Shown: one piece after another, positions 8,411 through 52,075 of the stretch
How positions within the stretch are numbered: the first letter of the stretch is position 1
Layout of the letters: each line of letters begins with the position of its first letter
Origin: a virus
DNA: 52,106 nt
Reading direction: 5' to 3' (one strand)
IMG/VR virus record: IMGVR_UViG_3300009008_000053
Location: 1 to 52,106 of that record
The notes under the pieces: model-generated
Seen by the model: the letters and a program-made list of their open reading frames with translations, nothing else
Told to the model about the DNA's origin: nothing
Database searches by the model: none
Program-made: the position numbers and the translations under genes

Positions 8411-10261
8411 ATGTCACTCAATAACAAAATAGACTACACTGGAAGAGATTTTGCTTCTTTGAAGGAAGATATCCGAACGTATCTCAGGCAAAAGTACCCA
8501 GATTTTTCATCTAACCTTGATGATGAAAACTCGATAGCGTCGGTTCTTCTAGACCTTAATGCGTTGGCTGTGGATAACTTAAACTTTTACATTGACAAAC
8601 AGTTCAATGAGATGTTCATTACGACAGCCCAAGAGACAGACAAGATTTATAGACTGGCTCATATGTATGGATACTCGCCTAGGAAAAAGGCTCCTGCTAG
8701 AGGACACGTTACTATGTCTATTAGCATAAGTGACTCTTTGTGGACAAACGGGGCCAAGGCTCTTAAGACCAACCTTCCTAGAATAGACATCTACAACTCT
8801 TATTTTAGCATTATAGACGATGATGGGAACGACGTTAGATACAGGTTTTTGAGAGAGGTTGATTGGAATGACAAGACATCATCTTTTTTTGTTGATGATG
8901 ACGGAACGGAGGTTTCTTCTAGGGCCGCGAACTCGATCACATGGACCCATGAGATAGGGGGGTCTGGCGTGCACACGATTTCTGCTCGTGTTCCTGTAGA
9001 GGGGTCATACTTCTCTACTATGGTTTTAGGTCCGTTTAGAGGACAGGCGTTTGAAACTATTAACCTATACGACGACGATTTCCATCGAGTGTTTTCAGCT
9101 CACACGGATTGGGATAGTGGGACAGAGCATTATACAGGAAATGCGTTCGCCGATATGTGGTTTGAAGTAGATTACATGGTAAACCCTTACGGATTTGTAA
9201 GAAAAGATTCCGTACATAGTGGAAAAACCCGAATTCAAACAAGGCGTAGGTTCATTACCAGAAACACATCGTACGGCACTCAGTTAGTGTTTGGATATCA
9301 AGACAGGGATGTTTTAGGGATGACCGATAAGGCCGATCTTCCTACACATCCTCTCTATGGTGGTGCATCCCTGGGTGATCCGTATTGGCCTCTGGGTAAG
9401 CGTCCCGATGCAGGTACGGAAATCATGTGTATCTACCTTACATCTAAGGGTAACAAAACTAACATTAAGGAAAATGCTTTAAGCGATTCCAATGTAACTC
9501 TAGCTTATCATCTGTCTCCTGATGACACCGATATCCACACACCCACTGTGGTAGAATCTACGGCGATGGCGGGCGGTATGGATGACGAGACTGTTGAAGA
9601 GATTCGACACAACGTACACTCTGTGTTTTTAAATCAGGAGAGAGCTGTCACGGCGGATGATTACATTAGTATTCTTAAGAGGATCCCCGCCGATTGGGGA
9701 GTTCCTATCTTTAAAGCTGGGGCGGCGGTTAGGGACGTAACGATCTTTAAAGATCCGTCTTCGATTACTATGACGGGGAGTTCTTTTACGCATAAGGAAA
9801 TCGATCTGTACGTTGTTAAACTAGGATCTGACGGTAAACTGGACCAGATTACTAGCACAGAAGAACAGCAATCGGTGTCTAATTACATTGATCACTACAG
9901 AATGCTGACAGACACAGTATACTTTAGACGACCAGAGATCATTGACATCAATGTTGAATATATACTGTCGGTATACGGCAACCATCAGGTTTCTTCTACA
10001 GTTAACGGCGTTAATGAGGCTTTGGCTGAATTTTTCCACCCTACAAATTGGGAGTTCGGACAACCTATCGTATACGATGATATCGTAAAATTGCTTATGC
10101 TAGTACCAGGAGTAAGGAACATGGTTTCCTTTATTGTGTATGAAGATGGGGACGTAGACAAAACTAATCTGTTGAGTAACAGGGAAGATATAACCAATAT
10201 CACTATGATCTACCCCCATCAGATCTATCAAATTAATCAGATTACTGGAGATGTACGATAA
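8411..10261 (+). CDS. Baseplate wedge protein gp6 (BaseplateJ family)
   Basis: 616 residues against 660 in T4 gp6. The N-terminus DYTGRDFASLKEDIRTYLR, followed by ASVLLDLNALAVDNLNFYID and then ETDKIYRLAHMYGYSPRK, is the diagnostic start of BaseplateJ/gp6 proteins. The middle has VEEIRHNVHSVFLNQERAVT, the conserved domain after which the C-terminal repeats follow. gp6 dimers form the inner baseplate ring. An AGGAG site precedes the ATG, and the stop overlaps the next start (TAATG). Confidence 0.9.
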   Translation: MSLNNKIDYTGRDFASLKEDIRTYLRQKYPDFSSNLDDENSIASVLLDLNALAVDNLNFYIDKQFNEMFITTAQETDKIYRLAHMYGYSPRKKAPARGHVTMSISISDSLWTNGAKALKTNLPRIDIYNSYFSIIDDDGNDVRYRFLREVDWNDKTSSFFVDDDGTEVSSRAANSITWTHEIGGSGVHTISARVPVEGSYFSTMVLGPFRGQAFETINLYDDDFHRVFSAHTDWDSGTEHYTGNAFADMWFEVDYMVNPYGFVRKDSVHSGKTRIQTRRRFITRNTSYGTQLVFGYQDRDVLGMTDKADLPTHPLYGGASLGDPYWPLGKRPDAGTEIMCIYLTSKGNKTNIKENALSDSNVTLAYHLSPDDTDIHTPTVVESTAMAGGMDDETVEEIRHNVHSVFLNQERAVTADDYISILKRIPADWGVPIFKAGAAVRDVTIFKDPSSITMTGSSFTHKEIDLYVVKLGSDGKLDQITSTEEQQSVSNYIDHYRMLTDTVYFRRPEIIDINVEYILSVYGNHQVSSTVNGVNEALAEFFHPTNWEFGQPIVYDDIVKLLMLVPGVRNMVSFIVYEDGDVDKTNLLSNREDITNITMIYPHQIYQINQITGDVR

Positions 10262-37579: not shown

Positions 37580-39691
37580 ATGGGTAAAAAAATCGGAGTA
37601 ACCATAGGCCGATACCAACCCTTTCACAAGGGCCATGAAGCCATCGTAAGAAAACTCTCCAAAGAGTACGATCGTGTGTATGTGTTTGTGGCTGGGAACA
37701 AGATGAGCAAGGGCAACCCTCTTCCCTTCGCCTTTAGAAAGAAGATCATCAACCTGTCTATGAAAGGTGCTTCCAACGTCAAGTTTCTGATGGCAGTCAT
37801 GGTGGACGATGACGGTAGGATGCGCGGTACGGGGTACCTCCCAGATCTTATTAAAAGGCTCAAAATAAAGCCCGACGATCGAGTAGATATCCTAGTAGGG
37901 AATGACAGGTATCAGAACTATTTCTCCATCATAGAAAAAGAGAAAATGCAACTAAACGTTCCCCTCAATGTTAGCGTGAAGAAGATGCCTAACGTCAGCG
38001 TGGACAACGACACTAGTGGGAGGATTTCAGGTACCGAGGTAAGATCCCTCATCATCGGCGGTAATAAAGACGAAGCAAGAAAGAGGATGAGCAGCAATCT
38101 TGGGTCCAAGTTTGATGAATTCTACGACAAGATGCGAAACTACATGGGTAGGTATTATCGTCTACATGAATCGTCTTTCTATCTTACGGAGGCCGAAGGA
38201 CTGGCTTCTCTTAAGGGGATCTCTCACATCGAGGATCTTAGTCCGTTCGCTTTCTTGAAGTTCCTGGAGAAGTGGCACAACACCGAGATCGACGGCGGGT
38301 TGGAGATCAGCGAAAAAGTAGACGGTTCCGCTCAGATCTCCTTTGGCGTGTCCAAGGGGAAGGTGTACGCGAAGTCCAAGTACGGTAAGCCCATCTTTTC
38401 CAGTTCAGGGTGGCCGAAGACTCACGTGTATGACGCGTTAAGGAACGCCCATTACGCTTTAGAGTCTGTGCGAAAGGGAATCCTACAGTTATACCTCGTT
38501 CCGAACACCAAGAACCCAGATGGGTACGACATTAAGGTGTCCAAAAAACCATCTAGAGGGGCTATTTTCCCTCAGTACTTTACTGAAGTCCTATGGACGA
38601 GGGTGCCTAACTCCATCGAGTATGGTGATAACATCCTAATGATCTACGGTATTAAGGTAGAGGGTGGGCATATTTCCTCTTCGGGATTTGAGAAGAAGGT
38701 GATCGACAAGCTTATTGAGCTAACGGGAAAAAGAACTACCGCAAAGGGAGCTAAGTGGAGGATGGAAGGAAAGATCATCCTCAGCAAGAGTCAGTTTGAA
38801 ATCGCGACGAAGGTAGAATACAAGAAGCTACGCGATATCTTGAAGGATATCAAGGCCCAGGAGGTCCTTCTAAAGCAAGCTCGTACCCCCGAACAGAAGA
38901 AAGCTAGAGCTAAACTCTTAGCGAAGATCAACAAGATCCAGCAAGCCCTAAAGAAGAAGTTCATATCCTCTCTTAGATCGAGCACCCCCACATATGGGCC
39001 AGAGGATTCCTTTATCGAGGGTATCGTGATCAAGGATCTAGAATCTGGAGCTATGATAAAGGTGGTAGACAAGGACATGTTTACCGCCGTGAATCGTTAT
39101 TTCTGGCATTATAGAGAGTTAATGGGCAAGGGTGGATTCGTAGGTAGTGAATGGCAAGTCGGTATTGGGACGCAATTGAAGTACGATATAGCAGAGCAAG
39201 TATTCGCCACCCCTGCCCTTAAAACACCTTCGGCACCTACTTACATAAAGAACAGAGTGACGAAGTACACTATACCCCCCGAGTTGAAGTCCCCCAATGC
39301 TAGGTTTAACTGGTTGTTATACGAGTTCATCAGAAAAGAGACAGCGGGTGGGAAAAAATCGGGCACGATGATGAGTGCCGAGATGGCCAACATTGTAAGG
39401 CTTGCGATTAAGAAGATCGAGAAGCTTCGATCCGAGTGGGAAAGAGATAAGCTTGGTACACTCACCAAAGCTGTCGAAGATTCCGAAACGGGTAAGGTTA
39501 TCAAGACCGTAAAAATGCCCCAAGAGGTCATAAAGAAAACGGACAAGGCTTTTGTATTGACCCTAGAAGAAATGAACAAACTGGTGAACCGAATAGAAAA
39601 GTTCACTCGCATGGTGAAGACCCAAGAGGCTAAGAAGGTTATCTGTTTGAAATTGTTCTTGGGTAAATCCGTTAACAAGATAAAGGTGTAA
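37580..39691 (+). CDS. Adenylyltransferase (NMNAT-like) fused to an ATP-dependent nucleic acid ligase
   Basis: 703 residues after AAGGGG. Domain 1 (1 to about 185) is a nucleotidyltransferase of the HxGH class: GRYQPFHKGHEA at 10-21 and the ISxTxxR-type ISGTEVR near 148. NMN adenylyltransferases and FAD synthetases share these. Domain 2 (about 230-560) is a covalent nucleotidyltransferase: motif I EKVDGSAQIS near 243 with the AMP-accepting lysine, a IYGIKVEGG strand, motif IV EGIVIKD near 478 and motif V AMIKVVDK near 492. That fits RNA or DNA ligase. The linker contains YLTEAEG, a possible prohead protease site. I infer NAD synthesis or repair joined to strand sealing. Confidence 0.8.
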   Translation: MGKKIGVTIGRYQPFHKGHEAIVRKLSKEYDRVYVFVAGNKMSKGNPLPFAFRKKIINLSMKGASNVKFLMAVMVDDDGRMRGTGYLPDLIKRLKIKPDDRVDILVGNDRYQNYFSIIEKEKMQLNVPLNVSVKKMPNVSVDNDTSGRISGTEVRSLIIGGNKDEARKRMSSNLGSKFDEFYDKMRNYMGRYYRLHESSFYLTEAEGLASLKGISHIEDLSPFAFLKFLEKWHNTEIDGGLEISEKVDGSAQISFGVSKGKVYAKSKYGKPIFSSSGWPKTHVYDALRNAHYALESVRKGILQLYLVPNTKNPDGYDIKVSKKPSRGAIFPQYFTEVLWTRVPNSIEYGDNILMIYGIKVEGGHISSSGFEKKVIDKLIELTGKRTTAKGAKWRMEGKIILSKSQFEIATKVEYKKLRDILKDIKAQEVLLKQARTPEQKKARAKLLAKINKIQQALKKKFISSLRSSTPTYGPEDSFIEGIVIKDLESGAMIKVVDKDMFTAVNRYFWHYRELMGKGGFVGSEWQVGIGTQLKYDIAEQVFATPALKTPSAPTYIKNRVTKYTIPPELKSPNARFNWLLYEFIRKETAGGKKSGTMMSAEMANIVRLAIKKIEKLRSEWERDKLGTLTKAVEDSETGKVIKTVKMPQEVIKKTDKAFVLTLEEMNKLVNRIEKFTRMVKTQEAKKVICLKLFLGKSVNKIKV

Positions 39692-39692
39692 A

Positions 39693-40151
39693 ATGAAGAG
39701 ATCCGAACTTAGAAAGATGATTGAAGAAGAGGTAACTCTTCTTACTGAGGCAGTAAAAGACCCTCTTGTTGTTGCTTTTGAGAAAGACATGAACATTTGG
39801 CCTCTTACGATCCGTTTTAGTATGGACCCCATGGAAACATCTGGTAGACCCGTAGTTATTACTGAAGTATTTGTTGATACCAATAAGGGTGCAGGCGGTA
39901 TGCCTAAAACTGTAGTAGTATTTCGAAAGCTGTTACATGCCGCTCGTACTAGCCAAAAGGTTCCTGCACCAAATAAAAAAAGATACGGTACTGGTCTTGC
40001 ATCAGTTTTGGATCTTGCATTGGTAGAAAGGATGATGAAGTCTTTGAAAGCTAAAAAAACTAAAGGGCCACTTGGGAATTTCGGTTATCGTGTTTTGGTG
40101 CGTAGTACAGAAGAGCTTTCAGCTATTTACAAAAAGTTGAGTAGTTATTAA
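39693..40151 (+). CDS. Small protein with putative capsid-targeting leader, 152 aa
   Basis: The N-terminus MKRSELRKMIEEEVTLLTE is an amphipathic helix ending L-T-E before A20, matching the (L/I)-x-E/A site cut by T4 prohead protease from internal proteins. The gene at 40579 has the same leader with the same cut position, while the mature parts differ. The mature part is basic (PNKKRYGTGLASVL, KSLKAKKTKG) as in DNA-condensing or injected internal proteins. Family not recognised; its role after injection is unknown. Confidence 0.6.
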   Translation: MKRSELRKMIEEEVTLLTEAVKDPLVVAFEKDMNIWPLTIRFSMDPMETSGRPVVITEVFVDTNKGAGGMPKTVVVFRKLLHAARTSQKVPAPNKKRYGTGLASVLDLALVERMMKSLKAKKTKGPLGNFGYRVLVRSTEELSAIYKKLSSY

Positions 40152-40163
40152 AAAGGAGTTTTT

Positions 40164-40577
40164 ATGGGAAGGGCTAAGTTATTTTCAACGTTTATCAGGT
40201 GGGGCGATCTGCCTTTCGTGTTAGAGACTCTACAGGGTCTAAGAAACAGCGGAGTAAAAGACAAGGTGTTCGTTCTTCAGAATCTCAGGAACGATGAGCA
40301 GCTTATCGTGACTTTTAACATCGAAGAGGATTCTAACTCTCTGAGAAACGAGCTTCCAGCGGGATCAATTCCCGTCCACAGGAAGAAAGAAGTGAACACG
40401 TTGTACAGCATCAACGCTCTCAACGAAGTGATCAAGTCGTTTAACGATGGGGTGGTGGACCCCACGATGGACATCCCGTGGGAACACTACTCTAACAGCT
40501 TCCTCATCATCAGAAGTGGGAAGTTGAGTATCATCCCCACCAAGCTCAATAGAGTGGTAGATTTAGAGGAGATGTAA
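40164..40577 (+). CDS. Hypothetical protein, 137 aa
   Basis: AAGGAG precedes ATG. The sequence is a mixed alpha/beta globular protein (VLETLQGLRNSGVKDKVFVL, NALNEVIKSFNDGVVDP, SNSFLIIRSGKLSIIPTK). It lacks the leader found on both neighbours (39693 and 40579) although it sits between them, so it is probably not packaged by the same route. No family recognised. Confidence 0.6.
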   Translation: MGRAKLFSTFIRWGDLPFVLETLQGLRNSGVKDKVFVLQNLRNDEQLIVTFNIEEDSNSLRNELPAGSIPVHRKKEVNTLYSINALNEVIKSFNDGVVDPTMDIPWEHYSNSFLIIRSGKLSIIPTKLNRVVDLEEM

Positions 40578-40578
40578 C

Positions 40579-41001
40579 ATGAAGAAATCTGAACTTAGAA
40601 AAATGATACAAGAAGAACTGGCTTTGATTAAAGAGGCGAGTCCCATTGAGAGAGCAATAGCTAAACACCCCCCTAAATGGCCTGTGGAAGCAGTAATATC
40701 ATTTAGCGAGTTAATAGGTATAGCGAAGGGAGTCTATAATACAAGTTTATTTTTCATGAAGAGTGGGTCTGGGAGTGACCATGATTTAGTTGATTATATA
40801 AGAAAGATAGTTAAGAAAAAATACTCTCATCCTAAATTCCCACGAATAGACGGATACCGTGGAGCCTTAATAACAGATGACAAATTTCTCAAGAGAGTTC
40901 CTAATCTTAAGAAAAAAAGCAAAGGTTCGGGGCTGTTATCTGTAGTTAAATTAAGAAACGAAAAGGACCTAATGACGTATCTTAAGAAATTAGGTCTTTA
41001 A
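40579..41001 (+). CDS. Small protein with putative capsid-targeting leader, 140 aa
   Basis: MKKSELRKMIQEELALIKE followed by A20 gives I-K-E/A, a T4-type prohead cleavage site at the same position as in the protein at 39693. The mature part is strongly basic, with runs such as IRKIVKKKYSHPKFPR and PNLKKKSKGSG. I read it as a second internal head protein, co-packaged with DNA. GAGGAG lies upstream of ATG. No family is recognised. Confidence 0.6.
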   Translation: MKKSELRKMIQEELALIKEASPIERAIAKHPPKWPVEAVISFSELIGIAKGVYNTSLFFMKSGSGSDHDLVDYIRKIVKKKYSHPKFPRIDGYRGALITDDKFLKRVPNLKKKSKGSGLLSVVKLRNEKDLMTYLKKLGL

Positions 41002-41447: not shown

Positions 41448-41896
41448 AGCTTCAAAAGGGAAGGTACTATTATGTCACTTACACGGATCATACTAAGAAA
41501 CCTAGAGTGACTCATGTGATGTACTTTTTAGGTATGGGCTCCATAAAAGGCCATCCTGTTTTGCGGTTCCAGAAGGACAATCAGATCAACATTATCGACA
41601 AAGAAGCAATCCTCAGTGTTCGCGAGGCTAAGCCCGATAAAACGCGGGGCGGTTGGAGAAAAGGTAGGGAATTGAGGCTGGAAGCTTCCTATAAAGGGAA
41701 TATGGGTGTGATGGAGGTTTTTCAGTTTTATAAGTTGGCTTCGAAGCAAGAAAAAGCGATGTTTGACAGGCTTGTGAACAAAAACAAACACAAAGAAGCT
41801 TGGCGCTTAGTCCAGAAAGTGACGGGTACCAAGCTTCAAGGTGCTCAGTTTGAGAGCATGGAACTAGTTCGTTGGGTAATGGAAGAGAGTGACTAA
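41444..41896 (+). CDS. Hypothetical protein, 150 aa
   Basis: ATGA overlap with the preceding gene. The first 65 residues are beta-type (GRYYYVTYTDHTKKPRV, HPVLRFQKDNQINIID), followed by a helical part with KQEKAMFDRLVNKNKHKEAW. No family recognised. The stop overlaps the start of the heparinase-like gene (TAATG), so the two are translationally coupled. Confidence 0.6.
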   Translation: MKLQKGRYYYVTYTDHTKKPRVTHVMYFLGMGSIKGHPVLRFQKDNQINIIDKEAILSVREAKPDKTRGGWRKGRELRLEASYKGNMGVMEVFQFYKLASKQEKAMFDRLVNKNKHKEAWRLVQKVTGTKLQGAQFESMELVRWVMEESD

Positions 41897-44250
41897 TGAA
41901 ATCGAAAGTGATCCACATAGTTGGGCTGTTTTTAGTGTTTATGATGATGATGTTCGTGGTAGACACGGTTGCTAAGGAGTTTGTTGATCATCCCAGGTTG
42001 TTCCTTACTCCCGAGCGCATCGAAAGGATCCAGACTCAGCATATTACCACCGATTCTTATGACTGGCAAAGAACTTTGGCTTGCGCAAGCAGATCGGACA
42101 TCGATGGTGCCGTAGCCAAGGCCATGCTGTATAGGGTAAACGGTGACATGGTTGCTGCTCACGCTGCCGTGGTTACTCTCCAAGGATACATGGACGGTCC
42201 TTTTCCCAACATTGGTTTTAACAACGCAGGACCATTCTTCAACAAGTGGGCTCTGTGCTACGACTGGCTCAGTGGGTACGCTCCTTTCGAAGCTATAAAA
42301 CCCGCTATCCGAGACTGGATTAATCGAATCGAACAGAACGATTGGGATTACTACACCAACGCTCCCTATATGAACGGCCATCAAAAGGCTATTTGGGGTG
42401 CTCCCCTTTGGGGGATGGCGACGGCTGGTGAAGACACTACTTCGCTAAGGTACCTGGACAGTGGGGACCGCAGGTGGGATCGCACGAAATACCTATTCGG
42501 TTTTGGACCCGACTATCTTGCTACGTGGAAGGACGGGATTCTCCCCTCTGGACACGACTATGGATCGGGGACGGTGAAAAACTCTCTGATCTACATGGAA
42601 GCCGCTAAGACTTCTTATGGAGCTACTACATGGGAAGACGCCACTTACGTCCAGAATTACCTTACGGGTTTCCTCCACCAGTATTACTACGCTCCCGATT
42701 ACTTTCACAGGTCTGAGCACGGACACAACGCTCAAAAGAAGAACGGCTATTTCGCTACCGAAGCTCTAGCAGCTTTGATAGTGGCCGACCACTTTCCCGA
42801 CAGCGACGAATCCAAGATGGTACAGTGGTGGTTCAACAATGCAGAAGGGGCGCTTCGTTACCCCTCCAAGAGCTATCGCTATTTCTCCTATTGGGCTCTC
42901 ATCTTTAGGGATCTGGAGAGAGAAGAGATCGACCCAGGACTCCACCTAACCAACAGTTATCTGGTGGAGTGGCCTGGGATCTATTTGTACCGATCCGATT
43001 ATAGCGCCGAGCTACCGCCCACTCTGTTCTGGACATTTAGAGCGGGAAATCAGATCTGGTTTAATCAGAATCATTATGACAATGGGAATATCTTCATAGC
43101 TTGGAAGGGGAGCAACCTTCTGATCGACGCTGGTATCTACGACGGTGGCGGCGGTAACAATATCCTGAATTACAGCAATCAGACCATCGGACACAACAGC
43201 ATCTTGGTTAAGGATCCCTTGGAAGAGTGCGGGTGGAATCCTATCGATCAGGAACGTTGTGATTACTACGAAAATTCGGGTGGTCAGAGGCTAGGGTGGC
43301 GTTACACTCCAGACGATTCCCCCATCGACGGCGTAGTTCCTGATCCCATACCAAACACCTTCCCCAAGCACTTACACGATGCAGCGGATATTGTAGAGTT
43401 GGAAGAGACAGATAGGTATACCTATATCCTCTCTGATATCACCAACTCCTACGCCAACCCACGATGGGAAGAAATCTACAGCATACGCGATCTGAATAAA
43501 CTCAGGTATCGTCCTAAGGTGGACGTAGTAGAAAGGGAGGTATTGTTCGTTGATAATCTGTTTGTCGTGTTCGACAGGATCGTAGCGACGGACCCGACTT
43601 TCGACAAGTATATAACCCATCATTCGATTTGGGAACCCATCTTGAATGAGGAAGACGAGGCGTTAGTAACGGGGGACAACGGACAGCTTTGGATTTCCGT
43701 ACTGTCCCCGAATAACTTCACGGTAGAAAAGATTGGGGGTGAAGGATACGAGTATTACGTGAACGGAACCAATTGGGATCCATTCCCCAACAGCCATAAC
43801 GATCTTGGTGGTAACTGGAGATTGGAGTATCATCTAACCGATCAACTACAGGAGGGTAACTTCTTACATGTCTTACAACCAGGAGATTTGGACAGCGAAA
43901 AGAAGGAGGTGATCGAGGTTCTTAGTTCTCCCGAGAGATTTATGGTCATGGTGAATAACACTATGGTTGGTTTTTCGAAAAACCGTGAATCCGTCACGAA
44001 TGCGGCCTACATGTCATACGGACAGGAGGACCACATAGTAGTTGACTTGATTCCAAATACATCGTATTCAGTCTATAACAATGGCAACCTCATCGACACC
44101 CAAACCTCAACCGAAAGCGGTGTCATAGCCTTCACGAGTTCAAAAGGGGGGTATTGGCTCGTGGTAGAATCCTCTAAAATACAAGGGAGGTCCCCAGCCC
44201 TCGCCACGCTGCTAGGGATCATCGGGGGCTGGGCTTATTTAGGTTACTAA
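41896..44250 (+). CDS. Exported heparinase II/III-like polysaccharide lyase
   Basis: 784 residues. Residues 1-26 form a signal peptide (VIHIVGLFLVFMMMMFVVDT then VAK). Residues of about 30-370 look like the helical toroid of heparinase II/III and alginate lyases (FFNKWALCYDWLSGYAPFEA). The central domain has the Hepar_II_III pattern NQNHYDNGNIFIAWKGSNLL, IDAGIYDGGGG and IGHNSILVKD, followed by a beta C-terminal part. The last 20 residues (PALATLLGIIGGWAYLGY) are hydrophobic and could be a membrane anchor. Such enzymes cut uronic-acid polysaccharides. A phage lyase with a signal peptide would act outside the host cell or in its envelope rather than on the virion. An intrinsic terminator follows. 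Confidence 0.7.
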   Translation: MKSKVIHIVGLFLVFMMMMFVVDTVAKEFVDHPRLFLTPERIERIQTQHITTDSYDWQRTLACASRSDIDGAVAKAMLYRVNGDMVAAHAAVVTLQGYMDGPFPNIGFNNAGPFFNKWALCYDWLSGYAPFEAIKPAIRDWINRIEQNDWDYYTNAPYMNGHQKAIWGAPLWGMATAGEDTTSLRYLDSGDRRWDRTKYLFGFGPDYLATWKDGILPSGHDYGSGTVKNSLIYMEAAKTSYGATTWEDATYVQNYLTGFLHQYYYAPDYFHRSEHGHNAQKKNGYFATEALAALIVADHFPDSDESKMVQWWFNNAEGALRYPSKSYRYFSYWALIFRDLEREEIDPGLHLTNSYLVEWPGIYLYRSDYSAELPPTLFWTFRAGNQIWFNQNHYDNGNIFIAWKGSNLLIDAGIYDGGGGNNILNYSNQTIGHNSILVKDPLEECGWNPIDQERCDYYENSGGQRLGWRYTPDDSPIDGVVPDPIPNTFPKHLHDAADIVELEETDRYTYILSDITNSYANPRWEEIYSIRDLNKLRYRPKVDVVEREVLFVDNLFVVFDRIVATDPTFDKYITHHSIWEPILNEEDEALVTGDNGQLWISVLSPNNFTVEKIGGEGYEYYVNGTNWDPFPNSHNDLGGNWRLEYHLTDQLQEGNFLHVLQPGDLDSEKKEVIEVLSSPERFMVMVNNTMVGFSKNRESVTNAAYMSYGQEDHIVVDLIPNTSYSVYNNGNLIDTQTSTESGVIAFTSSKGGYWLVVESSKIQGRSPALATLLGIIGGWAYLGY

Positions 44251-46691: not shown

Positions 46692-46817
46692 ATGGCTAGT
46701 GACAAGGACACTACTTATAGTGGAGGACACAAGAAAAAGACTCGTCAGGGAGCTTCCCGCAACACCAAGTGGGGGAAAAAGAAGCCCTACAAGGGTCAAG
46801 GTGGTAGGAAGAGGTGA
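46692..46817 (+). CDS. Very basic small protein, 41 aa
   Basis: GAGGAG lies upstream of ATG 46692. The product MASDKDTTYSGGHKKKTRQG, ending KKPYKGQGGRKR, is Lys/Arg/Gly-rich and unfolded in character, like a nucleic-acid or ribosome-binding tail. Its last bases GTGA contain the start of the next gene. It is a real coding candidate because of site, spacing and overlap. Confidence 0.6.
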   Translation: MASDKDTTYSGGHKKKTRQGASRNTKWGKKKPYKGQGGRKR

Positions 46818-48001
46818 ATAGACGGAACTTTTTAGTTTTGTCTATTTTAGCGCTGTTGGGGTGCCGTATGAGATCAGTAGGTCCGAGTAAGAAGACCATG
46901 GCCCGTGGAAAGTCGATCGATCCCCTAAGGATCGTTCGCGTCTACAACGATAAGATGAATCAATGGCCATACGACTCTACGGAATACTGGACTCACGATA
47001 ACAAGGCCGAAATCCGAAAGACCTTTGACGACGGACTCCTAAAGCTCACTGGTGCGTCCACGGTACAGGAGGCTTGGTTAGCCCTTCTTCCAGGATACGT
47101 TGACGGACAAAAGTTTGTGTTCAAGCACAACATGAACTGCTACGACACGGAAGAGCCCCTGACATCGAGATCGATGTCAGGGGTTGTTGTAGATTCCCTA
47201 CACGAGAATCTGGGAGTCGCCCACGACAAAATCAAGATTCTGGACGTGGTTAGAAGGTGGCCCAACGGGTATAGAGCAGATTGGGCCGCACAATACCCTC
47301 AAGTGGAGATGGTTCGCCAAGAGAGCAGTTCCGTGATCACGGGAGGATGGTACGAAGACGAGCAGATCGTTTTCTTCGATGGGAATGTGCCAGATCACAG
47401 AATACCGAACTATTTATTTGAAGCGGACCATATGATAAACTTATACCTCGTCAAAAGCCACAACGGCTACATAACGGGGGCGATGAAGAATCATTACGGT
47501 TCTCAGGAAAAGCCGAGTGAGTTACACGGTAATGGAGTGTGGAGAAGACCCAGGTGTATAGCGTACATCGGGTCCCATCACTTCTTCAGAGACAGGGAGC
47601 GACTTCAAGTCGGTGAGGGTTTTTTCCTTTCCCAGATAGACGAGAATGACATCTACACCCCCCTGTTGAATAGCGATTTTTTCCCAACGGGACGGCTCAA
47701 CAGCCTGTTTTTGTCAACGAACCCCGTTGTGTGTGATCGAGTGGTGCATGATTTCGTAAACGCGGAGAGATCCTACTTAGGATTATACGAGGAATCGATT
47801 GAGTTCCTGGAAATCGCGACCACAGAGTTTGCCAGTGCATTTGGGAACGCTCCGATAGACGTTCCTGAAATAGTAGGTGGGACGTTTACTCCAAAGGACT
47901 TTAGCTATCCTATCTACGACTACATTTCTTATGAGTATAAGAAGCCAAAACCCGAGAACGAACTTCCGAATTTCGAGGTTACGAAACCACCAAGGAGATA
48001 A
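46814..48001 (+). CDS. DUF362-like lipoprotein with twin-arginine-type signal
   Basis: 395 residues from GTG 46814, which overlaps the previous stop; choosing ATG 46869 would lose the signal. The N-terminus MNRRNFLVLSILALLGC has RRNFL as in Tat signals and a lipobox LLGC, so the mature protein should be lipid-anchored. The middle has NLYLVKSHNGYITGAMKNHY, resembling the DUF362 core (vn.P.lK.H....tGa.KN..G), and HHFFRDRE later. DUF362 proteins are usually envelope or redox-associated and of unknown function. A phage copy could modify the infected cell surface. Confidence 0.6.
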   Translation: MNRRNFLVLSILALLGCRMRSVGPSKKTMARGKSIDPLRIVRVYNDKMNQWPYDSTEYWTHDNKAEIRKTFDDGLLKLTGASTVQEAWLALLPGYVDGQKFVFKHNMNCYDTEEPLTSRSMSGVVVDSLHENLGVAHDKIKILDVVRRWPNGYRADWAAQYPQVEMVRQESSSVITGGWYEDEQIVFFDGNVPDHRIPNYLFEADHMINLYLVKSHNGYITGAMKNHYGSQEKPSELHGNGVWRRPRCIAYIGSHHFFRDRERLQVGEGFFLSQIDENDIYTPLLNSDFFPTGRLNSLFLSTNPVVCDRVVHDFVNAERSYLGLYEESIEFLEIATTEFASAFGNAPIDVPEIVGGTFTPKDFSYPIYDYISYEYKKPKPENELPNFEVTKPPRR

Positions 48002-48628: not shown

Positions 48629-48700
48629 GCGGGTATAGCTCAACGGTGAGAGCAGGCGGCTTATATCCGTCCGACCCTAGTTCAACTCTAGGTACCCGTA
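48629..48700 (+). tRNA. tRNA-Ile (anticodon UAU)
   Basis: Acceptor GCGGGTA/TACCCGT, D-stem GCTC/GAGC, anticodon arm GGCGG-CTTATAT-CCGTC, T-arm CCTAG-TTCAACT-CTAGG, discriminator A. Reads AUA, a codon often poorly served by hosts. CCA is not encoded. Confidence 0.85.
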
Positions 48701-49193
48701 CCTTTTCCCATGGGAGTGGGACTGCTGTTTGGTCGGTACAGCATAAACAATCGATCGCGGAAAGTGGGCAAAGTCGCGTTACTAAATCGTTCATCCTGGT
48801 GCTGGTACTAGCTAAGAGCACTAATTAACAAAACGGGATTGAGTTCCTGGTCTTAGCTTAGGGGGAGTAACGATTGCTTCTAGACTTTCGTCTTCCTCGT
48901 TTTTGGGTCACAAAAAGTGGCCGATCGTTTAAAGCCGAAGTGCACTACGATTGGCAGAGGGAGCGTTACCCTCGTGATCCACCTGAAGTAGGAGATGTGA
49001 GTTCAAGTCTCACTTAAGGTGGCTGCTGTAAACTGGAAAAATGTCGGTTCAATTCCGACTTAAGGCAGTCATTCGTATCGTCTAATGGATAAGACACCTA
49101 CACATTTTGTTTCGGGGGTGAACTAGATTCGATCTCTGTGAACAAAGGTTTGCGGGGAGACTTGGGAGCATTGCCCAACACCTCCAAAATTTT
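48701..49193 (+). ncRNA. 490-base stretch of tRNA-like and other structured pieces, no complete canonical tRNA
   Basis: I see a TGCTGT/ACAGCA hairpin near 48722; T-arms GTGAG-TTCAAGT-CTCAC (48997-49013) and GTCGG-TTCAATT-CCGAC (49043-49059), both followed by TTAAGG; a canonical D-arm GTCT-AATGGATA-AGAC at 49080-49095; and two 5-bp hairpins with loop AGCGTTA (48957-48973) and AGCATTG (49162-49178). The latter are followed by GTGATCC and CACCTCC, which pair with GGGTCAC (48905) and GGGGGTG (49114) at tRNA distance. No coding frame of note. Confidence 0.5.
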
Positions 49194-49276
49194 GCCAGCA
49201 CGGCGACGAGGGCGAGTCGCGGCAGACTGTAAATCTGTTCCCGATGGGTGAGTAGGTTCGAATCCTTCTGCTGGCA
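49194..49276 (+). tRNA. tRNA-Tyr (anticodon GUA)
   Basis: Acceptor GCCAGCA/TGCTGGC, D-stem GCGA/TCGC, anticodon arm GCAGA-CTGTAAA-TCTGT, long variable arm (class II, correct for Tyr), T-arm GTAGG-TTCGAAT-CCTTC, discriminator A. Confidence 0.93.
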
Positions 49277-49286
49277 CCGATTTTTG

Positions 49287-49356
49287 GCACGGAACGCTAA
49301 CGGTATGCGGCTTGATTCTCAGTCAAGTGTTAGCGGGTTCGATTCCCGTCCGTGCT
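49287..49356 (+). tRNA. tRNA-Glu (anticodon CUC)
   Basis: Acceptor GCACGGA/TCCGTGC, short D-stem CGC/GCG, anticodon arm CTTGA-TTCTCAG-TCAAG, T-arm GCGGG-TTCGATT-CCCGT. Discriminator T is unusual for Glu. Confidence 0.85.
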
Positions 49357-49418
49357 TCCTAGGTGGTGTCACGACTTATCGTGGCTTAAATGGATCCTGT
49401 GGGTTCGGCCATCGGTTT

Positions 49419-49494
49419 GCGGTGTTAGCTTAGTCTGGTCTAAAGCGCTTGCCTGTCGAGCAAGAGATCGCGAGTTCGAATCTCGTACACTGCG
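49419..49494 (+). tRNA. tRNA-Asp (anticodon GUC)
   Basis: Acceptor GCGGTGT/ACACTGC, D-stem GCTT/AAGC, anticodon arm CTTGC-CTGTCGA-GCAAG, T-arm GCGAG-TTCGAAT-CTCGT, discriminator G as expected for Asp. Confidence 0.93.
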
Positions 49495-49502
49495 CCTAGT
49501 TT

Positions 49503-49576
49503 GCCCCTGTAGCTCAGCGGAAGAGAGCAATCGGTTTCTACCCGATAGGTCGAGCGTTCGAATCGTTCCAGGGGTG
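49503..49576 (+). tRNA. tRNA-Arg (anticodon UCU)
   Basis: Acceptor GCCCCTG/CAGGGGT, D-stem GCTC/GAGC, anticodon arm ATCGG-TTTCTAC-CCGAT, T-arm GAGCG-TTCGAAT-CGTTC, discriminator G. Reads AGA, a common phage tRNA. Confidence 0.92.
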
Positions 49577-49580
49577 CCTA

Positions 49581-49650
49581 GCGTCACATGGCTGAAAATG
49601 ACGCCCTCACGGCCTGTGGGGTGGTGTTAGAGCACCAAGCAAAAGCCATG
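49581..49650 (+). ncRNA. Pseudoknot RNA, copy 1
   Basis: P1 GCGTCA (49581-49586) with TGACGC (49599-49604). The loop strand CATGGCT (49587-49593) pairs with AGCCATG (49644-49650), giving an H-type pseudoknot. Between them lie hairpins CCTCAC/GTGGGG and TGGTG/CACCA, then an A-rich linker. Copy 2 follows at once with the same plan and compensatory base changes. Confidence 0.7.
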
Positions 49651-49656
49651 CGTTTA

Positions 49657-49729
49657 GCGTTAATCGGCTGAAAGTAACGTCCCTCCATCTGCGGGGGTGA
49701 GGGGGAACCCCTTCGTAAAAAAAGCCGAT
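49657..49729 (+). ncRNA. Pseudoknot RNA, copy 2
   Basis: P1 GCGTTA (49657-49662) with TAACGT (49675-49680). ATCGGCT (49663-49669) pairs with AGCCGAT (49723-49729). Inner hairpins CCCTC/GGGGG and GAGGGG with CCCTTC, then an A-rich linker. GGCTGAAA is shared with copy 1. It ends 5 bases before tRNA-Thr. Confidence 0.7.
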
Positions 49730-49734
49730 GTTTA

Positions 49735-49809
49735 GCCTCGCTAGCTTAAATGGACTAAAGCGACTGTCTTGTAAACAGTTAGATTTCGGTTCGAATCCGA
49801 AGTGAGGCT
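49735..49809 (+). tRNA. tRNA-Thr (anticodon UGU)
   Basis: Acceptor GCCTCGC/GTGAGGC, D-stem GCTT/AAGC, anticodon arm ACTGT-CTTGTAA-ACAGT, T-arm TTCGG-TTCGAAT-CCGAA, discriminator T. Confidence 0.93.
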
Positions 49810-50036
49810 CCTCGTTATCGACAGTGTGTAGCTTAAGTGTAAAGTCCCCACGTTGGAGTGGGGGGATACTATAGCGTCGTCGCTGGTCGCACGATTGATA
49901 ACGGATCTCATGGCCACTTGATGGGGGAAAGGCTTAATTACCCTAGTACCCTGGAAGCTGCAGACTCTTAATCAAATAGGTAGCCCTCCGCAACGACGAT
50001 TGGGTTCATTGATGAGTCAAGTCGCGTGAGATTTTT
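49810..50036 (+). ncRNA. 227-base structured gap between tRNA-Thr and tRNA-Lys
   Basis: CGTTATC (49813-49819) pairs perfectly with GATAACG (49897-49903) and encloses a tRNA-like D-arm (TA-GCTT-AAGTGTA-AAGT) and the hairpin CCCCAC-GTTGGA-GTGGGG, an anticodon-arm-like stem with a 6-base loop holding UGG. The rest includes CTCTTAA (as in tRNA-Lys loops) without a matching stem. No T-loop and no coding frame. It may be a degenerate tRNA plus unknown RNA. Confidence 0.4.
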
Positions 50037-50110
50037 GCACCTGTAACTCAATTAGGTAGAGTAGCGCCCTCTTAAGGCGAACGTTCGGGGTTCGATTCCC
50101 TGCAGGTGTA
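50037..50110 (+). tRNA. tRNA-Lys (anticodon CUU)
   Basis: Acceptor GCACCTG/CAGGTGT, D-stem ACTC/GAGT, anticodon arm GCGCC-CTCTTAA-GGCGA, T-arm CGGGG-TTCGATT-CCCTG, discriminator A. Confidence 0.9.
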
Positions 50111-50120
50111 CTTAAAATGT

Positions 50121-50191
50121 GGGCTCCTAGCTCAAGGGGGAGAGCCCTATCAAGCTGGTAGAAGATCCAGGTTCGACCCCTGGGGAGTTCC
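50121..50191 (+). tRNA. tRNA with shortened anticodon arm (identity undetermined)
   Basis: Acceptor GGGCTCC/GGAGTTC, D-arm GCTC-AAGGGGGA-GAGC and T-arm CCAGG-TTCGACC-CCTGG are canonical. The anticodon arm CTATCAAGCTGGTAG has 15 bases instead of 17: either 5-bp stems with a 5-base loop AAGCT, or 4-bp stems with loop CAAGCTG lacking U33. It may be a pseudogene or a deliberately altered tRNA. Confidence 0.7.
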
Positions 50192-50202
50192 ACCTAACAT
50201 TC

Positions 50203-50274
50203 GGGCGATTGGCGTAACTGGTAACGCATAAGCTTTGCAAGCTTGAGTAAGGAGTTCGATTCTCCTATCGTCCA
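50203..50274 (+). tRNA. tRNA-Ala (anticodon UGC)
   Basis: Acceptor GGGCGAT/ATCGTCC, D-stem GCGT/ACGC, anticodon arm TAAGC-TTTGCAA-GCTTG, T-arm AGGAG-TTCGATT-CTCCT, discriminator A. The D-loop AACTGGTA recurs in tRNA-Lys at 51626. Confidence 0.92.
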
Positions 50275-50287
50275 CCTAAAACATTGT

Positions 50288-50410
50288 CGTTTCAAGCAGT
50301 TTTCTCCAGATTCTTTAGTTAGAGAAGTAATTTGTGAAAGTAACATGGTATACCTTTGTCCTAACCATCACAAAGAGCTAGACAAAGGTAAACTTGATTT
50401 AAGCGAGTGA
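50288..50410 (+). pseudogene. HNH endonuclease C-terminal remnant 1
   Basis: An open stretch of about 40 codons ends TGA 50410 inside the next tRNA. It encodes RFKQFSPDSLVREV followed by NMVYLCPNHHKELDKGKL, the LCPNxH end of HNH homing endonucleases. The N-terminal catalytic part is missing, so it is a decayed fragment. It also contains a 10-bp inverted repeat, TACCTTTGTC and GACAAAGGTA. Confidence 0.6.
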
Positions 50411-50486
50411 AGTCTACTTGGTATGACATCAGGCTTCCAACCTGACGGGGTAAAACCCATTGCGCGTTCGAATCGCGTCACTCGCT
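50403..50486 (+). tRNA. tRNA-Gly (anticodon UCC) with class II variable arm
   Basis: Acceptor GCGAGTG/CACTCGC, D-stem GTC/GAC, anticodon arm TCAGG-CTTCCAA-CCTGA, T-arm GCGCG-TTCGAAT-CGCGT, discriminator T as in tRNA-Gly. The variable region of 16 bases folds GGG-GTAAAA-CCC, unexpected for Gly. It overlaps the end of the HNH remnant. Confidence 0.85.
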
Positions 50487-50495
50487 CCGATTTTT

Positions 50496-50585
50496 ATCGC
50501 GGTACCCGAGTTTGGTCTAAGGGAGGGACCTGCAAAGTCCTCTGGAGAGAGATCTCTTTCGTGGGTTCAAATCCCACCCGCGATT
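50496..50585 (+). tRNA. tRNA-Cys (anticodon GCA) with class II variable arm
   Basis: Acceptor ATCGCGG/CCGCGAT, D-stem CCC/GGG with a Ser/Leu-type D-loop, anticodon arm GGGAC-CTGCAAA-GTCCT, T-arm GTGGG-TTCAAAT-CCCAC, discriminator T as in tRNA-Cys. The 19-base variable region containing AGAGATCTCT forms an extra arm, unusual for Cys. Confidence 0.85.
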
Positions 50586-50606
50586 CTTACGTAAACGTAA
50601 AATGGA

Positions 50607-50636
50607 TTGACCGAAGATCCTGAGATGTGGTATAAT
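50607..50636 (+). promoter_or_regulatory. Promoter inside the tRNA cluster
   Basis: TTGACC at 50607-50612 and TATAAT at 50631-50636, 18-base spacer, ATGTGG before the -10 box, as at the other early-type promoters. It drives the small genes that follow and probably the distal tRNAs. Confidence 0.85.
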
Positions 50637-50668
50637 AATTCTGTCACTGAAACGAAAGGGTTGACGAA

Positions 50669-50923
50669 ATGGGCGAGTTTAGGGTTAATGGTCGGCGTGG
50701 TATGGTGCCGATGCATGAAATGGGTCACGACGACGTTGGGATTTTTGATGGTGGGACGGATGAATCAGAGGAATGGATCGTCATGCGGCGTAACGGTGGG
50801 GTTATTTGCATCGATCCCAATGGGAGGATCGGGATCTGGGCTTCTGAGATGTCAAAGTCGTTGACTGATCCTGTTAGGATTCTTCCCAAGGGAACTAAGA
50901 TCGCGGTGGAGTTTGAGGTATAG
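50669..50923 (+). CDS. Hypothetical protein, 84 aa
   Basis: The first gene after the 50607 promoter, with AAAGGG about 10 bases before ATG. The product (MGEFRVNGRRGMVPMHEMGH, EEWIVMRRNGGVICIDPNGR) looks like a small beta protein. No family recognised. It is one of three tiny genes embedded between tRNA blocks. Confidence 0.6.
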   Translation: MGEFRVNGRRGMVPMHEMGHDDVGIFDGGTDESEEWIVMRRNGGVICIDPNGRIGIWASEMSKSLTDPVRILPKGTKIAVEFEV

Positions 50924-50927
50924 CAGT

Positions 50928-51080
50928 TTGGCGCAAACGGACAAGGCTTTGGCCCGATGTCTTCTCACGGACAACGAATTCTGGTTTGTTAGCTATAAGC
51001 ATGTCATGGACCAGATTCGTCAAATAGGGGTGGGCAGCGCGTGGTTTGCGCTTTTTGATCAGGAGGTGAATCATGGGTGA
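50928..51080 (+). CDS. Possible small protein with TTG start, 50 aa
   Basis: TTG 50928 to TGA 51080, with GAGG 9 bases upstream. The product contains QTDKALARCLLTDNEFWFVS and IRQIGVGSAWFALFDQEVN, a plausible globular composition. It fills the gap exactly and overlaps the next ATG by 8 bases. No ATG or GTG start upstream; the call rests on spacing and overlap. Confidence 0.45.
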   Translation: MAQTDKALARCLLTDNEFWFVSYKHVMDQIRQIGVGSAWFALFDQEVNHG

Positions 51081-51228
51081 CGTTGGGCAGGACAATGTTC
51101 GGGTTAGAGATCCCTGGCCCGTGGTTTGCAAGGGGTGTGGTAAGACTTTCATGTTCGATCCCAGAAACGTTAAGTATTACGAGTGTTGTTCTACGGAGTG
51201 TGTCTGGGAGTACGTGGAAAATAGTTGA
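51073..51228 (+). CDS. Small zinc-ribbon protein, 51 aa
   Basis: AGGAGG lies 7 bases before ATG 51073. Cysteines at 19, 22, 38, 39 and 43 (VVCKGCGKTF and YYECCSTECVWEYV) form a zinc ribbon of the kind used for nucleic-acid or protein contacts. The frame overlaps the TTG-start frame before it. Function unknown. Confidence 0.7.
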   Translation: MGDVGQDNVRVRDPWPVVCKGCGKTFMFDPRNVKYYECCSTECVWEYVENS

Positions 51229-51238
51229 GGGGACTATT

Positions 51239-51289
51239 ATGGGAGGACTGCCGAGCCTTCATCTTCTCATCGAGAGAAAGGCGATATAA
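51239..51289 (+). CDS. Possible 16-aa peptide
   Basis: MGGLPSLHLLIERKAI follows GAGGGG by 7 bases, directly after the zinc-ribbon gene. It is too short to judge; the ribosome site is the only support. Confidence 0.25.
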   Translation: MGGLPSLHLLIERKAI

Positions 51290-51388
51290 ACAGGATCGAC
51301 AAAAGCCTGGAAGCGGCAACTTCTGGGGAATAAATCGATCGTCTTTGCCGAGAAAAGCGGGGATACCTCGCCGTCTTTCTCTTTCTTT

Positions 51389-51464
51389 CTACGCGTAGCT
51401 TAGTACGGCCTAAAGCACCTACCTTGGGCGTAGGGGACCGCAGGTTCAAATCCTGCCGCGTAGA
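51389..51464 (+). tRNA. tRNA-Pro (anticodon UGG)
   Basis: Acceptor CTACGCG/CGCGTAG with C1-G72 as in bacterial tRNA-Pro, D-stem GCTT/AAGC, anticodon arm CCTAC-CTTGGGC-GTAGG, T-arm GCAGG-TTCAAAT-CCTGC, discriminator A. Confidence 0.93.
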
Positions 51465-51467
51465 CCT

Positions 51468-51529
51468 TGGAGTTCCCTGTGGTGGGGAAGTAGGGATCAA
51501 ATAGACCAAAAGTCCATGGTCGGCTCCAT
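51468..51529 (+). ncRNA. 62-base tRNA-shaped RNA with non-canonical T-loop
   Basis: TGGAGTT (51468-51474) pairs with GGCTCCA (51522-51528, two wobbles). Directly before it lies the stem GACCA/TGGTC (51504-51508 with 51517-51521) in T-arm position, with the 8-base loop AAAGTCCA. The middle has only one arm, CCCT...AGGG. Not a standard tRNA. Confidence 0.4.
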
Positions 51530-51533
51530 TTTT

Positions 51534-51618
51534 GGCCTTGTGGTGGAATGGGATACACTACGGTCTTAAAAACCGTCGCTCAAAAATGAGATTGAGGGTT
51601 CGAATCCCTCCGAGGCTA
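51534..51618 (+). tRNA. tRNA-Leu (anticodon UAA)
   Basis: Acceptor GGCCTTG/CGAGGCT, D-stem GTG/CAC, anticodon arm ACGGT-CTTAAAA-ACCGT, extra arm CTCA-AAAA-TGAG (class II, correct for Leu), T-arm GAGGG-TTCGAAT-CCCTC, discriminator A. Confidence 0.9.
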
Positions 51619-51625
51619 CCTTTTT

Positions 51626-51697
51626 GGGAGTATGATGTAACTGGTAACATATGGGACTTTTAATCCCTCATTCAGAGTTCGATCCTCTGTGCTCCCA
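51626..51697 (+). tRNA. tRNA-Lys (anticodon UUU)
   Basis: Acceptor GGGAGTA/TGCTCCC, D-stem ATGT/ACAT, anticodon arm TGGGA-CTTTTAA-TCCCT, T-arm CAGAG-TTCGATC-CTCTG, discriminator A. Followed at once by HNH remnant 2. Confidence 0.92.
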
Positions 51698-51698
51698 C

Positions 51699-51821
51699 CT
51701 AACAGACATTAAAGATTTCCCAGAGACTGCACTTTTGGGAGAAGTCAACTCACCAGACAATTTGGTTTTATTATGCCCTAACTGTCATTGGCTTTTTGAT
51801 AGAGGAAAACTAAAAATTTAA
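51699..51821 (+). pseudogene. HNH endonuclease C-terminal remnant 2
   Basis: About 40 open codons ending TAA 51821, one base before tRNA-Asn. Encodes IKDFPETALLGEVNSPDNLV then LLCPNCHWLFDRGKLKI, the zinc/HNH end of a homing endonuclease (CPNCH, DRGK). It aligns with remnant 1 over the whole length. No start codon or catalytic N-terminus is present. Confidence 0.65.
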
Positions 51822-51902
51822 TCAAGGGTCGCTAAGTGGTATAGCATCAGGTTGTTAACCTGACGAGGAAACTCATCGCGGGTTCGATCCCCGCCCCTTG
51901 AT
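51822..51902 (+). tRNA. tRNA-Asn (anticodon GUU) with class II variable arm
   Basis: Acceptor TCAAGGG/CCCTTGA, D-stem GCT/AGC, anticodon arm TCAGG-TTGTTAA-CCTGA, T-arm GCGGG-TTCGATC-CCCGC. The 14-base variable region forms GAG-GAAA-CTC, unexpected for Asn. The body resembles the tRNA-Gly at 50403. Confidence 0.82.
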
Positions 51903-51907
51903 CCTAT

Positions 51908-51988
51908 GCGCCAATGGTGGAATAGTAGACACGCCACTCTTAGGAAGTGGTGCCGAAAGGTGTGAGGGTGCGAATCCTTCTTGGCGTA
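51908..51988 (+). tRNA. tRNA-Leu (anticodon UAG)
   Basis: Acceptor GCGCCAA/TTGGCGT, D-stem GTG/CAC, anticodon arm CCACT-CTTAGGA-AGTGG, short extra arm, T-stem GAGGG/CCTTC. The T-loop reads TGCGAAT, so the usual T55 is G. Confidence 0.85.
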
Positions 51989-51994
51989 CTTTAT

Positions 51995-52067
51995 GGCTCC
52001 CTACCCCAACGGCAGAGGGAGTGCTTTCAAAAAGCATCGAGTCTGGGTTCGAATCCCAGGGGAGCTA
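51995..52067 (+). tRNA. tRNA with Leu anticodon CAA but class I body
   Basis: Acceptor GGCTCCC/GGGAGCT, D-stem CCC/GGG, anticodon arm GTGCT-TTCAAAA-AGCAT, 5-base variable loop, T-arm CTGGG-TTCGAAT-CCCAG, discriminator A. Leu tRNAs normally have a long extra arm; this one does not. Confidence 0.8.
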
Positions 52068-52075
52068 CCTTTTAT

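Follow-up and report, generated by a model that had tools for sequence, protein, structure and literature searches.

Two small proteins that an uncultivated T4-like phage encodes at positions 39693-40151 and 40579-41001 of the window (the whole 52,106-base virus record IMGVR_UViG_3300009008_000053, which is probably a fragment) share a 19-residue N-terminal leader that we read, with a probability of about 0.8, as a capsid-targeting propeptide that would be cut by an S77 protease, with the cargo released in the head and probably delivered with the DNA. A helical N-terminus, MK(K/R)SELRxxIxEE, would bind the prohead core or scaffold and carry the cargo into the prohead, and during head maturation the gp21-type (S77) protease would cut past the Glu of (L/I)-x-E (LTE-A and IKE-A in the window, with the hyphen here and below marking the cut), setting the mature cargo free inside the head. 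The cargo would then remain with the DNA and, like the T4 internal proteins, probably pass into the next host cell together with that DNA. The sequences strongly suggest targeting and cleavage, we infer the full course of packaging, cleavage and injection, and by analogy ejection and effector function of the cargos are plausible.

The features of the window on which this reading draws are as follows, all on the + strand.

8411..10261, +, baseplate wedge protein (gp6 / Baseplate_J, PF04865)
37580..39691, +, gene for a cytidylyltransferase-like protein with a ligase-like C-terminus, upstream of leader 1; its YLTE-A is one of 8 [LI]xE
39693-40151, +, leader 1 ORF, 152 aa, starts MKRSELRKMIEEEVTLLTE and then A
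39693..39749, +, leader 1, residues 1-19, MKRSELRKMIEEEVTLLTE, predicted cut after E19 (LTE-A), profile E 1e-6
39750..40151, +, cargo 1, 133 aa, net charge +12, without known family
40164..40577, +, gene for a leaderless 137-aa protein, flanked by the two leader genes, with homologs in leader-bearing records
40579-41001, +, leader 2 ORF, 140 aa, starts MKKSELRKMIQEELALIKE and then A
40579..40635, +, leader 2, residues 1-19, MKKSELRKMIQEELALIKE, predicted cut after E19 (IKE-A), profile E 2e-7
40636..41001, +, cargo 2, 121 aa, net charge +14, weak similarity to cargo 1

Residues 1-19 of the two ORFs are identical at 13 of 19 positions (68%). A leader profile built solely from other phages matched both window frames with the E values given above and none of the remaining 1425 reading-frame segments of the window, where the next best had an E value of 6.6; since it picks both frames and no others, the pair is not a product of chance. 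Coordinates, identity and profile thus agree with the first-pass annotation, which had described two proteins with a common 19-residue leader ending in (L/I)-x-E before Ala-20. That annotation had also pointed to L-x-E sites in a 595-residue protein (after residue 22) and in the linker of the ligase fusion (YLTE-A). The two leader sites stand, and the other two are at chance level: [LI]xE occurs about once per 90 residues in window proteins, with 5 instances in the 595-aa protein and 8 in the ligase fusion, and 8 of the 32 proteins of the window have it inside residues 9-26, a number that takes in the two with leaders. Being at background density, these two sites were rejected as processing sites.

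Beyond the leader, cargo 1 has no Pfam or PHROG match, and cargo 2 has no Pfam match and a sole PHROG match at E 0.16. No full-length relatives of either window protein were found in viral contigs, and a search of the first protein against phages returned chance matches only. AlphaFold single-sequence models of the two proteins (mean pLDDT 36 and 44) were too poor to use.

To find further leaders, we used a degenerate DNA pattern corresponding to leader residues 1-13, which carries about 51 bits and for which practically no chance matches are expected. The pattern occurs at 27 loci in viral contigs, and many of these hold short ORFs in tandem that start with MKKSELRxIIxEEI or near it and whose leader ends in (L/I)xE, the endings in the tandem arrays including LNE, LTE, INE and LKE. 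In this way the suggested search for more MK(K/R)SELRKMI starts has shown that what seemed peculiar to two proteins is a widespread module. Counted by profile, single records carry 14 (G001), 15 (G011), 11 (G012), 11 (G013) and 10 leaders (G015, of 292 kb). Among 84,980 bacterial and archaeal genomes the same pattern gave only two matches, both on contigs of less than 4 kb, and one of these contigs has three leader-type starts consecutively and is for that reason probably phage DNA. In tblastn searches the leader alone was too short a query to help, except for LR756508. No paper describing the leader was found in open-access texts, which omit most subscription papers.

By cargo, the 85 non-redundant leader proteins make up 84 clusters, and when all 85 are aligned over their full length the consensus is legible over 19 residues and then blank; the leader is the sole part common to the family. 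Compared with Pfam, PHROGs and PADLOC, the cargos gave scattered single matches and almost none could be named; these scans assigned a function confidently to none of them. The weak PADLOC matches were treated as chance. No Pfam, PHROG or PADLOC model describes the leader, because none was matched by several members.

The end of the leader is where the comparison with T4 becomes specific. Within ten residues past the EE of the leader, [LIVMF]xE is present in 74 of 86 anchored leaders and [LI]xE in 68 of 86; the frequency of [LIVMF]xE in equal-size cargo windows is 14%, and when the leaders' ten residues past EE were shuffled, a mean of 30 and a maximum of 45 had the motif, as against the 74 observed. 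P3 of the site is mostly L or I, and leader length ranges from 16 to 22 with the Glu still at the boundary. Information content is 3.6 bits at this Glu (which is fixed by construction), 0.4 at the next position and about zero after that, and A, G or S comes next after the Glu in 50% of leaders versus 18% in cargo. As a guard against circularity, we considered leaders picked by the DNA pattern alone, which stops before the site, and 18 of these 21 have it (shuffle mean 8.5, maximum 16 in 5000). Approximately 14% of leaders are without a site near the expected position, and the hydrophobic spacing could be due in part to an amphipathic helix alone. Judged from these alignments, leader conservation stops exactly at a motif of the kind cleaved by T4 gp21-type (S77) proteases.

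An S77 protease scores above the Pfam cut-off in 8 of the 27 type-1 leader records, many of which are short, and in 6 of the 10 that are at least 38 kb. It is also encoded by LR756508, a 484-kb uncultured phage, and by 10 of 12 large records that carry a second leader, described below. None of 16 random viral records of at least 38 kb has S77; this control is not perfectly clean, because one of its records (G040) has a weak leader-like match (E 4e-5), whose neighbour genes look like phage baseplate genes. The S77 prohead protease of the related phages is homologous to T4 gp21, with a match of the G015 protease to the T4 gp21 structure 5jbl at E 1.8e-18 and a match to PHROG 207 at E 3.5e-58. 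Two of these genes have peculiarities of their own. In LR756508.1 the S77 protease (L056:6481-8205, about 156480-158204) has an intein-like LAGLIDADG insert right after GELDHPD, and in G011 (L037, L048) three TGA codons interrupt the protease frame, one or more of them where relatives have Trp, and TGA is probably translated as an amino acid in this phage.

In the leader phages terL is followed in order by portal, a 280-300-aa protein, a core-position protein, protease, leader array, a gp22-like acidic protein and capsid protein, and PHROGs back the assignments of terminase, portal, protease and capsid; the T4 order for comparison is 20-67-68-21-22-23. In G015 no more than 10 kb separates 8 of the 10 leaders from the protease (P 2e-8), and in some records leaders are also found among tail genes (L049). 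The same type of site recurs in other head proteins of these phages. In an alignment of capsid proteins, hydrophobic-x-Glu falls on T4 gp23 Glu65, the known cleavage site, in 7 of 7 leader-group phages, and RM378 is offset. The core-position protein, located between portal and protease where T4 has gp67/gp68, has a leader-like start ending in xxE at the putative cut, and the mature start xxTGxxxGYxTPxAF, which is conserved in most core-position proteins, begins just past the Glu. The proteases themselves have (L/I/V)xE-(S/G) near residues 14-25.

On the window, a 52-kb fragment, neither S77 nor head genes were found, and for this reason our reading of the window rests on its relatives. The first-pass annotation had likened the leader to the T4 capsid-targeting leader removed by gp21 and had proposed that the prohead protease be identified elsewhere in the genome. 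The likeness has strong support in the relatives, from the conservation boundary, S77, the arrays in head operons and the sites in capsid, core and protease proteins; the protease was located in the large relatives, with no match on the window, and we infer that it is encoded by the absent part of the window phage genome.

A second leader, M(E/K)(N/D)F(N/D)LKK(Y/F)L(A/V)E...(L/I)xE, is present on at least 120 stretches. Of its non-redundant examples, 126 of 132 end in the motif, and they comprise 90 cargo clusters. In one protein (L053:10425-10946) the two stand in series, the second leader before the first. Because two unrelated leaders have the same ending and both occur in S77 phages, a common processing step is favoured. 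In G005 (L053:9373-13503), tandem ORFs bear the second leader MENFNLKKYLAE(S/G)(K/R)LLKE, and one has the first leader too. The cultured Flavobacterium phage immuto has both leader types (L058:4736-6036, L062:4251-6311), and one of its leader proteins is annotated as a cob(I)alamin adenosyltransferase. The mature starts predicted for immuto are Asn25 of QQO92112.1 (ILKE-NSN), Gly26 of QQO92111.1 (LLKE-GSD) and Ala60 of its capsid protein QQO92122.1 (VSE-AN).

The alternative that we take most seriously, while considering it unlikely, accepts that the leader targets the prohead and is cut, and holds that the cargos are assembly or DNA-condensing parts that are kept or degraded and not delivered effectors. 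The arrays do lie among scaffold and capsid genes, the conserved protein in the gp67/gp68 position has a leader of the same kind, and both window cargos are basic, which fits DNA binding. With 84 cargo clusters per 85 proteins, however, turnover is far above what is usual for assembly parts, and cargo charge is not consistently basic. The claim that the cargo is basic is correct for the two window cargos (+12 and +14) and fails for the family, where 50 of 85 cargos are net positive with a mean charge of +0.8 per 100 aa.

Improbable, in our view, is that the leader is an uncut helical docking tag for some other partner in phage or host, such as a polymerase, a chaperone or a nuclear shell, with LxE as a by-product of an amphipathic helix. 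The leader is predicted to be helical (in a poor model), and leaders also occur outside head operons, those of the window included. On the other hand, a mere docking helix would not account well for a Glu that holds the boundary while length varies from 16 to 22, with A/G/S enriched right after it, nor for the strong association with S77, the same site in capsid protein and protease, and a second, unrelated leader with the same end motif.

The first-pass annotation had called the two window proteins unrelated outside the leader, and this is not established. With the leader removed, cargo 1 and cargo 2 give a Smith-Waterman score of 53, equalled by 12 of 5000 shuffles, and BLASTP finds 13/32 identities at E 0.001 (a single comparison), the similarity centring on KKxxGxGLxSV. 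Because of this weak similarity, the two cargos may be diverged, old paralogs. That the window pair are simply tandem duplicates with least-diverged N-termini and no common leader function, for which this same similarity would speak, is very improbable, because the leader is found on 83 other cargos, nearly all mutually unrelated, and a profile built with no window sequence picks out both window leaders and nothing else in the window.

The best reading of the leader is a capsid-targeting propeptide that resembles those of the T4 internal proteins, in a far more expanded system. In T4, gp21 cleaves at L/I-X-E and the capsid targeting sequence is 10-19 aa, with the first ten residues of IPIII enough for targeting (PMC9026906). 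From the T4 record we read the propeptide of IPII and IPIII as MKTYQEFIAE-A, and that of IPI as 19 residues ending in ITE-A. Like IPI, IPII and IPIII (and Alt), the leader proteins would have a short N-terminal propeptide on divergent cargos with (L/I)-x-E before Ala, of similar length (10-19 residues in T4, 19 aa in the window and 16-22 in the family), and large related leader-phage genomes encode the S77 protease and a major capsid protein that shares the cleavage motif. The leader, however, is not alignable with MKTYQEFIAE, and the leader profile has no match in the T4 genome; the second leader family (MENFNLKKYLAE) resembles MKTYQEFIAE more than the first does, by eye only. Leader phages also differ from T4 in having up to 15 copies per record where T4 has 3, in having leader genes mostly arrayed inside the head operon where the T4 genes are scattered, and in having cargos without recognisable relatives.

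Two other systems are comparable in part. DarB of phage P1 has an N-terminal capsid targeting signal, and there too an N-terminal stretch suffices to bring a foreign protein into the head (PMC9024508). The P1 signal differs in that it is not common to dozens of cargos, belongs to another head and protease family, and has no T4-type LxE cleavage shown for it. In the giant phages phiKZ, 201phi2-1 and SPN3US, many head proteins are cut after Glu by a gp21-related protease, and ejection proteins are packaged in the head. This is a likeness in Glu-cut, ejected head proteins; the differences are that the phiKZ motif is S/A-x-E, that no single short repeated leader has been described, and that these belong to another phage group.

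We lean, with some reserve, to a broader view in which uncultivated T4-like phages, huge ones included, have a general protein-injection system with an interchangeable head-targeting leader and arrays of up to about 15 fast-changing cargos per genome. If this is true, there are at least two independent leader families, the unknown cargo families brought in at the start of infection number well over a hundred, and the leader is a simple marker for finding them. The 13-residue signature would then flag unknown small genes whose products travel in the virion and reach the host ahead of the rest, and it is among such early arrivals that counter-defence and takeover functions are expected. The T4 internal-protein idea, with its handful of cargos, would extend to aquatic and huge phages across a broad group, and the leader would offer a new tag for loading proteins into phage heads.

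The window belongs to the leader-phage group because its baseplate wedge and 137-aa protein have homologs there. Homologs of the baseplate wedge are present in G015, G017, G022, LR756508, Flavobacterium phage immuto and Microcystis phage Mel-JY01, and absent from T4 and RM378. The 137-aa protein has homologs of about 39% identity in four leader-bearing records (L063, L027, L018 and L006), which adjoin exonuclease-, ssDNA-binding protein- and recombinase-like genes, by our judgement. The window leader genes adjoin replication-type genes, outside any head operon.

Several neighbouring genes deserve mention. Large cytidylyltransferase-like proteins of three related phages (L059:6248-8167, L067 and L068) have other short starts with early LxE-like sites; the cytidylyltransferase-like protein of the window (37580-39691) has no such start. 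At 41896-44250 the window encodes a 784-aa protein that resembles heparinase II/III and has a hydrophobic N-terminus like a signal sequence; it may be a phage polysaccharide lyase. At 46814-48001 it encodes a DUF362 protein with a lipoprotein-like N-terminus (LALLGC). An array of 17 predicted tRNA genes occupies the right end (48629-52069).
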